Shown here: one piece after another, positions 1,094-15,398 of the stretch
Layout of the letters: each line of letters opens with the position of its first letter
How positions within the stretch are numbered: position 1 is the first letter of the stretch
DNA from: Planctomycetota bacterium
GTDB lineage: Bacteria; Planctomycetota; Planctomycetia; Pirellulales; Pirellulaceae
Direction: 5' to 3'
Assembly (NCBI GenBank): GCA_963204995.1
Contig: CAUJKL010000025.1
Coordinates: 1 to 34,644 of the forward strand
DNA: 34,644 bases
The notes under the pieces: model-generated
What the model saw: only the letters and a program-made list of their open reading frames with translations
What the model was told of the DNA's origin: nothing
Database searches by the model: none
Translations under genes and position numbers: made by a program

Positions 1094-2722
1094 CTACCGG
1101 CCGAAACCGAAGAAGAAGCTGAAGTTCTGAATGTTGTCACCCGGTGCGTGATGAACTGGAATGGCAAGGTCGAGTGCCAGCGGAGCTGGTCCCATGGCAG
1201 GGATCGAAATTCGCAAACCCACGCCAGGTGACACGCGGTAGTTATTGGCATCGATCTCGATATTCTGTTCTACCGTTCCATAGTCGCAGAACACGACGCC
1301 CTTCATCATGTCGTCTGCAGTCAACGGGAACATGTATTCCACGGAACCGAGGAATTGGAATCGACCGCCCAGCGTGACGCCGCTGGCCGCATCGCGCGGT
1401 GAGGCACCGCGGAAATCAAAGCCTCGCATCGTCGAGAAACCACCCGCAAAATAGTTCTCAAAGATCGGCGTCTGCGCACCGGAGAAACCGAGCTGGAAGC
1501 TATAGGCGAGTGTGTGTCGACCCGATCCGTCCGGACGCTCACGAGCCAGGAAGTATTGACGATAGTCGATCTCACCTCGCGGATAATCGAACGAGCCGAA
1601 TACTTGTTCGTAGCTCAGCTCGATCAAGTGTCCTTCGGTCGCGGCGAACGGCGTGTCGCGAGTGTCGTGTGTCATGATCGTCTTGCCGCTGAACAAGTCG
1701 TTATTGCCGCGTACGGCGTCGAGCTGCGGAACGCCAGCGACTCGCAAATTGCTGATGTTCACGTTTTCGGCTCGCAGAGCACCGCTCAACGACAAGTCGT
1801 GTGTAAGTCGATAACCGAGCGCCAAGCGTCCGCCGAGCCGTTGTTCACTCCAGTCGAAGTAACGCCGATTATAGAACGAGGCACTCGTATTCAGACTGAA
1901 CGGAGTCGCCACGGAACCAAGGTACAGATAGGGTTGCGTGAAGCTAACGAGATAGCGTTGGACCTGCGTGCCGGGTTGAGCTTCAAGGCGGAAACCTTGG
2001 CCGCCACCGCGCCATGCAGTGCCGTTGACCACGTCCTCCCAACTCGTCGGCGGCCGTCGCCAATCGACATTGCGCTCGTCGATGGTGATCAGCCCGGTAA
2101 CACCCAGGTTCGAATTGACACCCATCCCGAACATGAAGCGTCCGGTGCGCGTCTCGTCCACGTAGACGTCGAAATCGACTGTTGGCGGCAAGGGCACTGC
2201 CGGCTGCAGTAACGGGTCGGCATTGCCCTCTGGCAAGACACCCGGAAACGCTGGCAGGGGTTCCGGCAGCGGATTCTGTACCATCTGAGCGACGGGAGAA
2301 TTATTGTTGTAGCCACCTTGCGGCGGATAATTCGTGGGAGCTGGATAGCCGTAGGCAGGGCTCTGGCCGCGCATCACGGGCTCGCCGGATACTTGCATCG
2401 GCCGTCGCCAATGATCGCTGCTCCCGGCCGTTGGCTCGTTCGCCGGGGCGAACCAATCACGCGGACTCTGACCGCGCACGATCCGCTCGGACTTCTGCTC
2501 GTCGGACTTTGGTTCAACGGCACTCGAATGGTTCATCCCGACACCGACTGCACTCGATCCAGTTTCCGGAATGCTGATCGCTGGCGCATCGACGGAACGC
2601 GCCGGTGACGTGCGCGGAGCATGCGGTTGGGCATGCGGCTTCGTCGGCGTCAACGTTGCACAACCGGCTGTGCAGAGCACAGCGGCAATCCAACTTGCGA
2701 CGATCGTCTGGATGAATCTCAA
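1094..2722 (-). CDS. Omp85/BamA-type beta-barrel protein lacking POTRA domains, likely lipoprotein
   Basis: 542 residues. The N-terminus is a signal peptide with a probable lipobox ending CTAGC, which makes Cys21 the likely lipidated residue; Thr at -3 is not ideal. Residues 22-180 are low-complexity and Pro/Gln-rich and contain RGQSP twice (about residues 83 and 118). From about residue 182 the protein matches the Omp85 barrel: a VDFDVYVDETRTGRFMFG lead-in strand, the GTQVQRYLVSFTQPYL region, then alternating strands to an aromatic C-terminus (FSFFFGFGR). No POTRA domain is present. The POTRA chain is the gene directly upstream, eight bases away, so the two products should work together in outer-membrane protein insertion, as BamA does. 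A TamA- or D15-like role is the alternative. The call of an Omp85 barrel is firm; the lipoprotein call is moderate. Confidence 0.88.
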   Translation of the reverse strand: MRFIQTIVASWIAAVLCTAGCATLTPTKPHAQPHAPRTSPARSVDAPAISIPETGSSAVGVGMNHSSAVEPKSDEQKSERIVRGQSPRDWFAPANEPTAGSSDHWRRPMQVSGEPVMRGQSPAYGYPAPTNYPPQGGYNNNSPVAQMVQNPLPEPLPAFPGVLPEGNADPLLQPAVPLPPTVDFDVYVDETRTGRFMFGMGVNSNLGVTGLITIDERNVDWRRPPTSWEDVVNGTAWRGGGQGFRLEAQPGTQVQRYLVSFTQPYLYLGSVATPFSLNTSASFYNRRYFDWSEQRLGGRLALGYRLTHDLSLSGALRAENVNISNLRVAGVPQLDAVRGNNDLFSGKTIMTHDTRDTPFAATEGHLIELSYEQVFGSFDYPRGEIDYRQYFLARERPDGSGRHTLAYSFQLGFSGAQTPIFENYFAGGFSTMRGFDFRGASPRDAASGVTLGGRFQFLGSVEYMFPLTADDMMKGVVFCDYGTVEQNIEIDANNYRVSPGVGLRISIPAMGPAPLALDLAIPVHHAPGDNIQNFSFFFGFGR

Positions 2723-2730
2723 CGAATTAC

Positions 2731-4245
2731 CTACCGTGAAGGACCATACGGCAACGGCCCGTACGGAGATGGCGAGAACTGACGGGGCTCTGATGGATCC
2801 GGTACAGGGTCGACGTAGATATCGATATCAAGCTCATTGGCATCGGGGCTTTGGCCTCGAACTGTTCCAGGCCGCTGCTGTTTGGCGATCCCGCCCGTGT
2901 CATTCAAGTCGGGCGGTTTAATCACGACCCGCGGTTCCTTGCCAGATTGCGGGTCTGTCTCGAACAGTTGCGATGACTTTAAGCGCCGCTCGCTCGAACG
3001 GACTTCGCGAATGTCGACGATATCGCCGGGGCGGATCGACAACCGATCGAGGATGACGCTTTCCCGTGTGTGAGGAAACTCGCCCGCAATATGAACGTTA
3101 ATCTTTCCAACACGAAACTGTTCGCCTTCGGTTACGTTGTAGACCAAATCGAGCTCGCCGGGATTCTCGAACGAGAAGCGAGGTTCCGCCTTGACGTCTG
3201 CAAAGATGTAACCCTGTCCGCCGTACACATCGCGCAGCGTGTTTACATCGCGATCCATCTTGCCTTGATTGAAGTATTCGCCCGAGTGAAGATTCAACGA
3301 ACTCTCGAGCGCCACCGTTTCGAACAGCGAATTCCCAAGCACCGAGACGTTGCGAACGACAAACTGAGGCCCTTCGTCGATGACAAACCTCAGTGTCAAC
3401 CACTTGTTGTTCTCGTCGAAATCCAGCTCGCGCCCGATCCTTGCTTTGAAGAAGCCGAAGCTTCGATAGTACGCGGTGAGCTTTTCGACGTCGGCTTCGA
3501 TCTTCGAGCGGTCCACTTTGCCGCGAAGCAGGTAATACAAGTATCCCGGCTTCGACTGAATCTGCGTTTCCAACCGCTTCGCCGAGACAAACGTGTTGCC
3601 GACAAACTCGACCTTTTCGATCCGCTGTAGCGTTCCTTCGGCGACACCAAAGACGGCGCTTCGATGTTCCGGCTCGTTCCCTTCGATGATCGAAATCTCG
3701 GCTTTCGGGAAGCCCTTGGATCGATAGTAGTCCTCGATCTTCCGGCGAGCTTCCTCGATCGCGTAGAAGTTCATCGAGTCGCCCACCTTCAGGCCGCACT
3801 GTTTGAGCAAGGTTCGATCTGTTATTCCACGATTGCCGCGGAACTCGATCGCTCGGATCGTCGGGCGTTCGAATACCTCGAACGTCACGACCATGCCTTC
3901 GGCCGCTTGCTGCGTGTAGATGCGGACTTCGCGAAACAGGCCCGATGACGTCAGCCGCCGCTTGTCGGCTTGCAACGTCTCGGGATCGTACAGCCGATCT
4001 TTGCGAGTTCGTAGATAGGACAGAACCGTGTCCTCCTTCACCGTTTCATTGCCGGTAATTCGCACTTCGGTAACCAACGGCCCTTGTGGTGCCGGTAATT
4101 GCTCTGGCGCGACGGCAAACTGCGGATCGTAGGGTTGCTGCGCTAATCCCGTACCGGTGCCAAGCGTAAGCGTGCCGACAGCCATCAAGACCAACGACAG
4201 AACCGCGTGCTCGACGAGCCACGAAGTCTGATGACGACTAAGCAT
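2731..4245 (-). CDS. POTRA-repeat protein, the periplasmic half of a split BamA
   Basis: 504 residues. A signal peptide (hydrophobic residues about 12-32, ending near GTGLAQQ) precedes about five POTRA repeats, visible as units such as VTEVRITGNETVKEDTVLSY, IRAIEFRGNRGITDRTLL, IEKVEFVGNTFVSAKRLE and VRNVSVLGNSLFETVALE. The chain stops at the point where a normal BamA enters its barrel. The last 40 residues carry RGQSP (463-467) and LDIDIYVD (472-479), then a Pro-rich end. The barrel follows as a separate gene eight bases downstream. I place the start at 4245, where the signal peptide begins; the frame is open further upstream to 4488 without such a signal. Probable role: recruiting outer-membrane protein substrates and passing them to the barrel protein. 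Family identity is clear; the functional pairing is inferred. Confidence 0.88.
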   Translation of the reverse strand: MLSRHQTSWLVEHAVLSLVLMAVGTLTLGTGTGLAQQPYDPQFAVAPEQLPAPQGPLVTEVRITGNETVKEDTVLSYLRTRKDRLYDPETLQADKRRLTSSGLFREVRIYTQQAAEGMVVTFEVFERPTIRAIEFRGNRGITDRTLLKQCGLKVGDSMNFYAIEEARRKIEDYYRSKGFPKAEISIIEGNEPEHRSAVFGVAEGTLQRIEKVEFVGNTFVSAKRLETQIQSKPGYLYYLLRGKVDRSKIEADVEKLTAYYRSFGFFKARIGRELDFDENNKWLTLRFVIDEGPQFVVRNVSVLGNSLFETVALESSLNLHSGEYFNQGKMDRDVNTLRDVYGGQGYIFADVKAEPRFSFENPGELDLVYNVTEGEQFRVGKINVHIAGEFPHTRESVILDRLSIRPGDIVDIREVRSSERRLKSSQLFETDPQSGKEPRVVIKPPDLNDTGGIAKQQRPGTVRGQSPDANELDIDIYVDPVPDPSEPRQFSPSPYGPLPYGPSR

Positions 4246-11306: not shown

Positions 11307-12873
11307 ATGACTCCACACGACCTCGCACTTTCCCCTGCACCAGACGCCGACCTCTCGGGGCGCCAGTTCGGCGATTATCTCGTCTTGCGCCGTCTCGGGC
11401 GTGGCGGCATGGCCGACGTCTATCTCGCTGAGCAAAAGTCGTTGCATCGTCAGGTTGCCTTCAAGGCGTTACACGCTCGCTTAGCCAGCGATGACACCTA
11501 CGTTCGTCGCTTTCATAATGAAGCGCAAGCCGTTGCCGCCCTCGTCCACGCGAATATCGTTCAGATTCACGGGGTCGATTGTATCGACGGCGTTCACTTC
11601 CTGATTCAAGAGTATGTACCCGGCCAGAACTTGCAGCAACTGCTTGCCAAACACGGGACGCTGTGCGTCGCAATCGTCGTCAACCTCATGCGCCAAGTTG
11701 CCGCCGCCCTTCAAAAGGCCAGCGATCGCGGTATCGTGCATCGCGACGTCAAGCCGGAAAACATCTTGCTGAGTGCGACCGGCGAAGCGAAGGTCGCAGA
11801 TTTCGGGCTTGCTCAGATCGCTGATCTCCAAAACGGTACAGACGTCGGTATCACGCAAGTTGGCATCACGATGGGACTCCGCTCTACATGAGTCCCGAAC
11901 AAGTCGAAGGGCATGAGATCGATCATCGCAACGATCTCTATTCATTCGGTGTCACCTGCAACCAGATGCTCGTTGGTCGCCCTCCGTTTCAAGGCGACAC
12001 AGCATTGGGCGTCGCCGTTCAACACCTGAAAAACGAACCGCGCGCGATCAGTGAAATGCGGCCCAACGCACCAACCGAGTTATGTCCCATAATTCACAAG
12101 CTGCTGGCGAAGTCTGTTAACGATCGATATCAGAGCGCAGCAGAGTTGCTGCGAGACCTCCGCACTTGGAGATCGAATCGACCGACGAAGACTGGCCTGG
12201 CGAAATTGGCGAGTGGACGACGCAAGAATTGCTGGCGCTGACGGCGGGTCGAACGGCCGCAACCCAGCAGCTGCAAACAGCCATGCTGTCGGAGACACGG
12301 CTGCGAACGTCACACTCCGTGTGGTTGTGGATTGGGCTGGCCACCTTCGCTGCATTCCTGGTCGGTTGCATAGTCGCCTCGATCACGCGTCCTGAATCCT
12401 TGCTCGCGCACGGTCAGATCCCGCGCGTCGAACGATTCGAGACAGCCTCGGACCAGTTCAGCCACGCGATGCAAGTGGGTACGGAAGTGGCGTTCCAAAG
12501 TGTCATCGACTATTTCGGCAACGACGCCACTGCGATCAGCGAGTCGTACGTCAATAAGGCCAAGCTGCAGTTGGCATACTTATATTCGGATCGAGAAAGA
12601 ACGGCGGAAGCCATGCAGTTGTTGATCGAATTATCCGATCAGCAGACTGACCTAAAACTTCGAGCGATGAGCCTCATCCGGCAAGCCAATACCTACGCCC
12701 AACGCAATCAATTCGCAGAAGCCAATCAAAAGACGTTCGCGCTTGCCAAACTGATTGAAGACACGGAACAACTGAGTCCCCGGCAACGCCAAACGTTACG
12801 GATCGAAGCCCAGGCCACGCTGGCCCCAAAACTCCTCGCCGACTTCCGGCTTCAGCTCCGCGACACGCAATAG
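11307..12873 (+). pseudogene. Ser/Thr protein kinase with C-terminal membrane and helical repeat region, broken by two frameshifts
   Basis: Three consecutive frames make one protein. Frame one (from 11307) has the glycine loop LGRGGMADVYLA, the VAIK-type lysine in RQVAFKA, HRDVKPEN and ADFGLA, and stops at 11891. Restoring one base after 11876 gives TPLYMSPEQVEG and continues through the kinase C-lobe (DLYSFGVTCNQMLVGRPPF). Restoring one base near 12165 continues into a linker, one transmembrane segment (LWIGLATFAAFLVGCIVA) and a TPR-like helical region to 12873. All catalytic motifs survive. The family is Hanks-type kinases, usually membrane signalling proteins with an extracytoplasmic sensor. 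Both losses are in short base runs (A and T), so recent inactivation or sequencing error are both possible. It starts 13 bases after the membrane protein gene. Confidence 0.85.
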
Positions 12874-13776: not shown

Positions 13777-15398
13777 ATGAAATCGCTTGGTTGTCCACAG
13801 CAAGTGGAACTGAAACAGTTCGTCGTCGGTCGCGTCGATGATTCCGTTGCCGATCGCATCGAGTCGCACATCAAGGTTTGTTTGGCCTGTGCGGCGGCGC
13901 TCGACGCGCTCGATGCGGAAGCGTATCCGCAAGCTGCGTCAGCATTGGAATTAGACGAAACGGATGAGGAGTCCACTCGACTCACCGCCTTCCTGAGCAG
14001 ATTGAGGCATCTTTCGCATCGCGACAGCTCCAGCAACAACGCTCAAGGCCCTCGCCGCCCGACACTCGTCGATTCGCTGGGGCATCTGAGTCGCTATAAA
14101 ATCCGCGAGTGCTTGCGAGTGAGCCGGATGAGCGAAGTGTACCGGGCCTACGATTCGGCACTGGATCGCGAAGTCGCGCTCAAAGTCCTGCCATCGCATC
14201 ATCGCGATGACACGGAGTCTTCACTGCGATTCGTCCGTGAGATGAAGAATGCTGCGGGGCTGCGTCATGCAAACATCGTGCCCGTGCTGGAAGCAGGAGA
14301 AGTTGACGGCGTTTGTTACTACACGATGGAGTTTATCCAAGGAGCGAATTTCGCGCAGGTGTTGCGGGGGCACAGCCAAGAACAACACAGCGAACTGACT
14401 TCCACGGATTGTGGCGGGATTAAGGAAGAAACTGCGAATGCAGCTGCTTTCGCAAAGCAGATCTTCGACCGCCTCTACGACGGGAGGCTTGATACGGACG
14501 CGAAACGGAGGCGTGAATACCATCAGGCTATAGTGTGAATCGGCTGGATGGTGGCGGATGCATTGAGCTATGCACACGGAAAAGGCATTCTGCATCGCGA
14601 CGTTAAGCCATCCAACCTACTCATCGACACACAACACATCGTCTACCTGACGGATTTTGGACTCGCCAAGGCGTTCGATGACGATCGTGATCTTACCGCG
14701 ACCGATGCGATCGTGGGAACGCCCAGCTACATTCCTCCCGAAGCTTTTGAGGGATCGTCCGACGCGCGCGGGGATGTCTATTCGTTGGGCATCACGCTGT
14801 ACGCGCTGCTCACGCTGAAACTGCCCTACAGCGATTCTTCTCGTGAGCAGTTGGTCCAACAAATCGTGAACGGGAAGGCGCAGCGGCTCGAGATTTTCGG
14901 CGCTGCCATACCGAAGAACTTGGCGACGATCATCCACAAGGCCATGCACATCGAGCCAACACGCCGATACGAGACTGCTCGCGACATGGCCGATGACTTG
15001 CTCCACTTTATGAAGGACGAGCCCATCTCGGCGCGCCCCGAGTCGCTGTCTGAATGGGCGGGAAGAGTAGCAAGGAGAAACCCGGTCGCAACTAGTCTCG
15101 CCATCTTGATCGTAGCTGCTGTCTTGGTTGCCGCCATCGGATTCGCGATAGCCTGGCGACACTCGTCTCAGTTGGCTGCCGCAAACGGCCAACTCGCCGC
15201 ACGACGATCGCAATGGTTCGCTACTACAAAAGGAGTAAGCGGTACGAGGACGCCAAGAATCTTCAAGCAACCCTCGTTGAGTTAAGCCGGTCAAGATTCA
15301 GACCAAGTCATCCGCTAGTGATCTCGGTAGAAGATAATCTACGCGCTATCGAATCGCTGCTCTCGGCGCAACAAGCCAGCAATCGCGTGGCACCATGA
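13777..15398 (+). pseudogene. Second Ser/Thr protein kinase, inactivated
   Basis: The frame starts with an anti-sigma-like zinc knuckle (C6, then HIKVCLAC at about residues 31-38), then a kinase domain. An in-frame TGA at 14536-14538 interrupts it; a CGA-to-TGA change fits the flanking sequence. Reading continues in the same frame with HRDVKPSN, TDFGLAK and DVYSLGITLYALL to a transmembrane segment (LAILIVAAVLVAAIGFAIAW). The glycine loop has degenerated: RVSRMSEVYRA stands where GxGxxGEVY is expected. After about residue 480 the frame is lost at 15285. A shifted frame at 15213-15398 has the usual TPR-type tail (YKRSKRYEDAKNLQATLVEL), so a long sensor region is deleted. Two kinds of damage plus loop erosion make this a real pseudogene. 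Confidence 0.85.

Follow-up and report, generated by a model that had tools for sequence, protein, structure and literature searches.

Can a BamA be built from two separately encoded chains, and if so, where is the protein divided and how do its parts meet again? Ordinary BamA, as in E. coli, is one chain in which five POTRA domains precede a 16-strand Omp85 barrel. To our knowledge, this single-chain form is regarded as near-universal, and the connection between POTRA5 and the barrel is counted in its working. In the window, by which we mean the whole 34,644-nucleotide stretch of planctomycete DNA analyzed here, the same parts are encoded by two adjacent open reading frames (ORFs).

Both ORFs lie on the minus strand. 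The first (POTRA chain, 2731-4245) starts with an ATG at 4245, stops with a TAG at 2731-2733 and encodes 504 amino acids, while the second (barrel chain, 1094-2722) starts with a TTG at 2720-2722, stops at 1094-1096 and encodes 542 amino acids. Only 8 bases (2723-2730) separate the POTRA stop from the barrel start. These ORFs bear out an earlier note on this DNA, which had described a POTRA chain with its own stop followed eight bases later by a barrel with its own signal peptide, and the same arrangement was found in all sampled genomes of the window's family. Both N termini indeed resemble export signals, as that note had proposed. Residues 1 to 36 of the POTRA chain (4138-4245, minus strand) end in GLAQ, lack a lipobox and do not satisfy the strict lipobox rule, and the hydrophobic stretch of the barrel chain (2660-2722, minus strand) ends in the lipobox-like sequence LCTAGC, with Cys21 at 2660-2662. 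The barrel chain then continues into a proline-rich linker (residues 22 to 178; 2189-2659, minus strand) that contains two RGQSP motifs.

MobB and TatC are encoded upstream of the POTRA gene, likewise on the minus strand. In congeners and close relatives, a ribosome-site-like AGGAG precedes the same TTG start, whereas in the window it has been removed by a 10-base deletion and is absent from the 8 intergenic bases, so that, in the window, the barrel may be produced only if the POTRA gene is translated. On the plus strand (809-1078), facing the barrel gene, a small predicted secreted protein rich in tyrosine and glycine is encoded (89 amino acids, no Pfam match).

We then asked whether the two chains together amount to a BamA. 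Pfam identified five POTRA matches in the POTRA chain (2.9e-55) and Omp85 (PF01103) alone in the barrel chain (2e-45, model positions 2 to 322 of 325). The matches to POTRA1 to POTRA4 were full or nearly full length (3865-4077, 3637-3864, 3370-3624, and 3124-3360), and that to POTRA5 (2959-3099) covered only model positions 5 to 54 of 79. Five POTRA units thus precede the barrel, the fifth being whole only if a strand on the barrel chain is counted. The barrel itself (1097-2146, minus strand) harbors STMRGFDFRG, a loop 6 motif of the VRGF/Y type aligned with STVRGF of E. coli, and ends in FFFGFGR. The pair therefore resembles single-chain BamA in the order of its parts, its five POTRA units, its Omp85 barrel, its STxRGF motif and its presence as a sole copy; it differs in having two genes and two signal peptides, a break within POTRA5, proline-rich tails and a likely, predicted lipid on the barrel chain. 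POTRA domains and barrel are not on a single polypeptide, a stop and 8 bases lying between them.

Family models gave a corresponding picture. Against the NCBIfam BamA model (TIGR03303; cut-off 297 bits), the POTRA chain scored 241 bits and the barrel chain 161 bits, each falling short by itself, but their coverage was complementary (model positions 3 to 372 and 385 to 738) and jointly spanned most of the model. Since neither half alone reaches the cut-off, annotation pipelines may overlook BamA in these bacteria. With lipo_TamL (NCBIfam), whose cut-off is 400, the two chains reached only 49 and 21 bits, so the pair does not qualify as TamL. In the whole assembly, these two genes gave the sole Omp85 match and the sole POTRA matches above cut-off. 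The genome had no match to TamB (PF04357) at an E value of 0.01; the BamD model matched long TPR-like frames both above and below its cut-off, so that none stood out as a clear BamD, and one Skp/OmpH candidate was present. In another planctomycete, Planctopirus limnophila, bamA is essential (PMC10632474).

To locate the break, we combined structure prediction with alignment. In the AF2 prediction for the POTRA chain, based on nine sequences and with a mean pLDDT of 75, POTRA1 to POTRA4 each appeared as strand-helix-helix-strand-strand, i.e., with three strands, at a pLDDT of mostly 80 to 94. In contrast, POTRA5 (chain residues 381 to 443; 2917-3105, minus strand) was modeled as strand-helix-helix-strand with two strands only (E345-349, H359-363, H376-388, and E403-407 in mature-chain numbering), its pLDDT dropping to about 46 to 72, and the tail beyond it was disordered. 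Structural alignment placed this model on residues about 24 to 408 of many E. coli BamA entries. Profile alignment (hhalign) placed the barrel chain on E. coli BamA residues 409 to 807, the aligned part beginning with VDFDVYVDETRTGRF opposite VDVVYKVKERNTGSF, the segment in which the end of POTRA5 runs into barrel strand 1. The last POTRA5 strand is thus VDFDVYVDE on the barrel chain (2153-2179, minus strand), matching VDVVYKVKE of E. coli BamA. This pre-barrel strand and the TGRF that follows it were found in all complete barrel sequences extracted, split or fused. For the barrel chain, AF2 reached a mean pLDDT of only 31; this model was set aside, and the geometry of barrel and strand therefore rests on homology.

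One chain thus takes over from the other at E. coli residue 408/409, which puts the cut in the POTRA5 loop that joins the second strand to the third and last one. The earlier note had put the break between the POTRA domains and the barrel; AF2, hhalign and structural alignment instead place it inside POTRA5, with the last strand left on the barrel chain. Its picture of a POTRA-only chain and a barrel chain holds insofar as this is a real two-gene BamA, but the first chain falls short of a full set of POTRA domains and the second is more than a barrel.

Taking the two chains, their conservation, the position of the break, the sole copies and the purifying selection described below as observed, we consider it probable that the only BamA of this genome consists of two subunits from adjacent genes that are rejoined by POTRA5 strand complementation, the barrel probably being lipid anchored. 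Complex formation, strand donation, lipidation and BAM function are the proposed parts of this model. The POTRA subunit, comprising POTRA1 to POTRA4 and POTRA5 without its last strand, would be secreted to the periplasm, and the barrel subunit, probably carrying a lipid on Cys21, would fold into the outer membrane. There, the latter would display the strand that POTRA5 lacks, immediately ahead of barrel strand 1 and just inside the membrane. By binding the donated strand, the POTRA subunit would make POTRA5 whole and place POTRA1 to POTRA4 as in ordinary BamA. The old linker would persist as two free tails, and most species would add a lipid tether. The third strand occupies the middle of the sheet in the POTRA fold; POTRA5 lacking it should therefore be unstable alone, which should make assembly with the barrel obligatory.

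The POTRA chain might alternatively complete POTRA5 with its own tail. A strand-like segment, LDIDIYV (2812-2832, minus strand), follows the motif RGQSPD (2842-2859, minus strand) in the window, a similar one occurs in 11 of the 43 split species, and several fused relatives have such segments behind their first RGQSPD. The subunit would then be self-contained and would dock by another surface, the barrel-side strand serving as a mere attachment. However, the segment is missing in about three quarters of the split species, several of which stop right after strand 2, and AF2 leaves LDIDIYV undocked at a pLDDT under 40. Furthermore, it is the barrel-side strand that matches E. coli POTRA5 and that is present in all complete barrel chains. 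We hence regard completion by the tail as unlikely and favor strand donation by the barrel subunit.

We next considered the lipid anchor on the barrel chain. Under a relaxed rule (a hydrophobic stretch ending in cysteine), 40 of the 43 split barrel chains, including that of the window, have a lipobox-like site. The residue before the cysteine is nearly always glycine, and in several species this cysteine is the only one of the chain. The strict PROSITE pattern PS51257 was matched by 28/43 barrel chains, compared to 3/43 POTRA chains and 3/17 fused proteins; LCTAGC of the window fails it solely through the cysteine at position -4. The lipobox that the earlier note had deemed likely (CTAGC) is thus upheld as a relaxed match, and the barrel chain is probably lipidated at Cys21, as far as its signal sequence allows a prediction. 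Three barrel chains have no lipobox, namely L050 and L059, the two copies of genome G058, and L052, which belongs to the window's family. Because of these three, a lipid, as predicted from the signals, is common yet not obligatory for the split.

A two-chain BamA whose barrel subunit carries an ordinary signal and no lipid, and is held in the membrane by the barrel alone, overlaps with our preferred model, the lipid being the sole difference. The failure of the strict rule in the window, owing to the cysteine at -4, and in 15 of the 43 chains would fit such a subunit, as would the complete lack of a lipobox in L050, L052, and L059. Nevertheless, the recurrence of a cysteine behind a hydrophobic stretch, nearly always with glycine at -1, in 40/43 chains, several of them from species whose chain has no other cysteine, makes an unlipidated barrel improbable, and we retain the lipid-anchored subunit.

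A more radical possibility is that the two products have separate jobs, the barrel inserting proteins without the help of POTRA domains and the POTRA chain acting as a soluble chaperone. POTRA-less Omp85 proteins are indeed known ("noNterm" group; PMC4104836), but every locus read has the two genes side by side, the genome has no other BamA, and POTRA5 is incomplete unless the barrel chain is present. Such a division of labor thus appears very unlikely, and we continue with a BamA of two cooperating subunits.

To see how widely this form is distributed, as the earlier note had suggested, we sampled first 60 relatives and then two wider draws, including 55 genomes of the window's family from about 42 genera. 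A fused frame was absent in 55/55 of these. Every family member had a barrel frame well below fused size, and wherever the locus was read, a POTRA frame preceded it directly in the same orientation; the very short barrel frames of G007, G017, and G024 are due to contig ends. The split was also seen in single-contig genomes of the family (e.g., G008, G013, G021, and G030). In each of the 43 loci read, the POTRA and barrel genes were direct neighbors with the same orientation. The other families of the order mostly have the fused form: about 98 of 113 sampled genomes carried one fused frame of 937 to 1,496 amino acids, and some short frames were contig ends. Further split cases outside the window's family occurred in families f3, f4, and f9 and in G058 of f5. 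In the wider phylum, BamA is mostly ordinary, at about 800 amino acids (780 to 900).

Across the 43 loci, the barrel frame relative to the POTRA frame was scattered over all three frames (10/17/16), and we therefore rejected stop readthrough or a programmed frameshift. Additionally, dN/dS in the folded parts of both chains, determined against two congeners, was about 0.05 to 0.08, i.e., strong purifying selection. A frameshift, assembly error or decaying gene, which the mere eight bases between stop and restart and an assembly in 1,093 contigs could have brought to mind, is excluded and retains practically no probability, given the same split in single-contig genomes and about 42 genera, the 10/17/16 frames, the signal peptide between the chains and the strong purifying selection. 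The earlier argument against a frameshift thus stands, now on family-wide grounds.

Some genomes of the sample deviated from these patterns. G058 has two complete split BamA loci (L050 and L059), both without a lipobox, i.e., a duplicated split form without a predicted lipid anchor. Four genomes of the same order (G040, G357, G359, and G420; 93 to 99% complete) gave no BamA barrel match, probably because of assembly gaps, and G040 gave no POTRA match either. G377 has a short, 671-amino-acid barrel frame (C141:7043-8086), while other members of its family, f17, are fused, and this frame is possibly an independent split or a contig problem.

The fused relatives also indicate how the split came about. 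The stretch between the POTRA5 helix and TGRF, counted from where the helix ends, measures 26 to 28 residues in E. coli and in each of three ordinary planctomycetes. It is 135 residues long in a fused relative that belongs to the class but not to the order, and fused members of the order itself have about 177 to 467 (mis-anchored values for L055 and L060 were left out). Fused relatives have, in this same POTRA5 loop, an insert of 150 to 440 residues that is rich in proline, glutamine and glycine and carries RGQSPD-type motifs, often two. Similarly, in most split species the tail of the POTRA chain bears one such motif and the linker of the barrel chain a second. These long-linker single-chain BamA proteins of the class and of the other families of the order thus share the position of the POTRA5 insert, the RGQ motifs and the pre-barrel strand with the window, but differ in their uninterrupted gene, their one signal peptide and, mostly, the lack of a lipobox. 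The earlier note had held that a fused form in close relatives with the break at the same point, together with frameshift evidence in reads, would refute its reading. Fused genes with an extra linker there do exist, but they reveal the route of the split rather than an error. With the long insert at the same loop, the split therefore followed linker growth; judging from these alignments, the break fell in an already long, disordered loop, where a new signal peptide arose. The free proline-rich tails of both chains are probably remnants of the old linker.

RGQSPD is found one to several times per disordered BamA linker across the order (fused L038 to L091 in addition to the window), and the RGQ form is also found at class level, the motif being well conserved amid an otherwise variable linker sequence. 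A strand-like DIDVYVD found both where the POTRA chain ends and ahead of the barrel had prompted the idea of a tandem duplication of the fused gene with complementary loss. This is unneeded, as a single chain of the fused relatives already combines the RGQSPD segment with the pre-barrel strand.

A phylogeny of BamA recovered the window's family as a single clade with full support. On this tree, five changes between the split and the fused state are required, and the starred branches force no fewer than two. Grouping all split forms into one clade was weakly rejected (p-AU 0.0445). More than one origin of the split is thus likely. A broader proposal, to which we would give an even chance, is a family-wide two-subunit BAM core that arose repeatedly from long-linker ancestors and in which a lipid-anchored barrel donates the last POTRA5 strand to an exchangeable POTRA subunit, so that the arm could dock, leave or be swapped.

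Related Omp85 proteins share some of these features. The parts of Heinz and Lithgow (PMC4104836) consulted describe POTRA-less as well as lipid-anchored Omp85 groups, the latter with three POTRA domains in one chain, and a search of that text found no planctomycete. Like the Omp85 lipoproteins/TamL of Bacteroidota covered there, the window encodes an Omp85 protein with an N-terminal (in the window, predicted) lipid anchor. In TamL, however, POTRA domains and barrel form one chain with the lipid before POTRA1, whereas the predicted lipid of the window would be attached to a barrel chain that has no complete POTRA domain. The absence of complete POTRA domains is shared with the "noNterm" and other POTRA-poor barrels of the same source, but the window encodes five POTRA units next door, and its barrel chain retains the last POTRA5 strand. 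BamA has been reported for Pirellula and Blastopirellula (PMC3422733), and the searchable text of that report gave nothing for POTRA, split, or two genes. Neither a split planctomycete BamA nor a BamA cut within POTRA5 was described in the literature found, which covered subscription papers and preprints thinly and is thus weak evidence on this point.

A BamA cut in POTRA5, fixed across dozens of genera and here the sole copy, would mean that the protein can do without the covalent link as long as the strand can be supplied in trans. A naturally split BAM would also offer a ready system in which to study the role of the POTRA arm, substrate hand-over and movement.

Finally, elsewhere in the window, on the plus strand, a Ser/Thr kinase gene (13777-15285) contains an in-frame TGA at 14536-14538, with Pkinase model positions 12 to 108 matched before it and 107 to 254 after it. 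This could be a decayed gene, a sequence error, or a second start at the ATG of 14548. A second kinase ORF (11307-11891, plus strand) ends at Pkinase model position 152 of 263 and is apparently truncated, giving two broken kinase genes within 4 kb.
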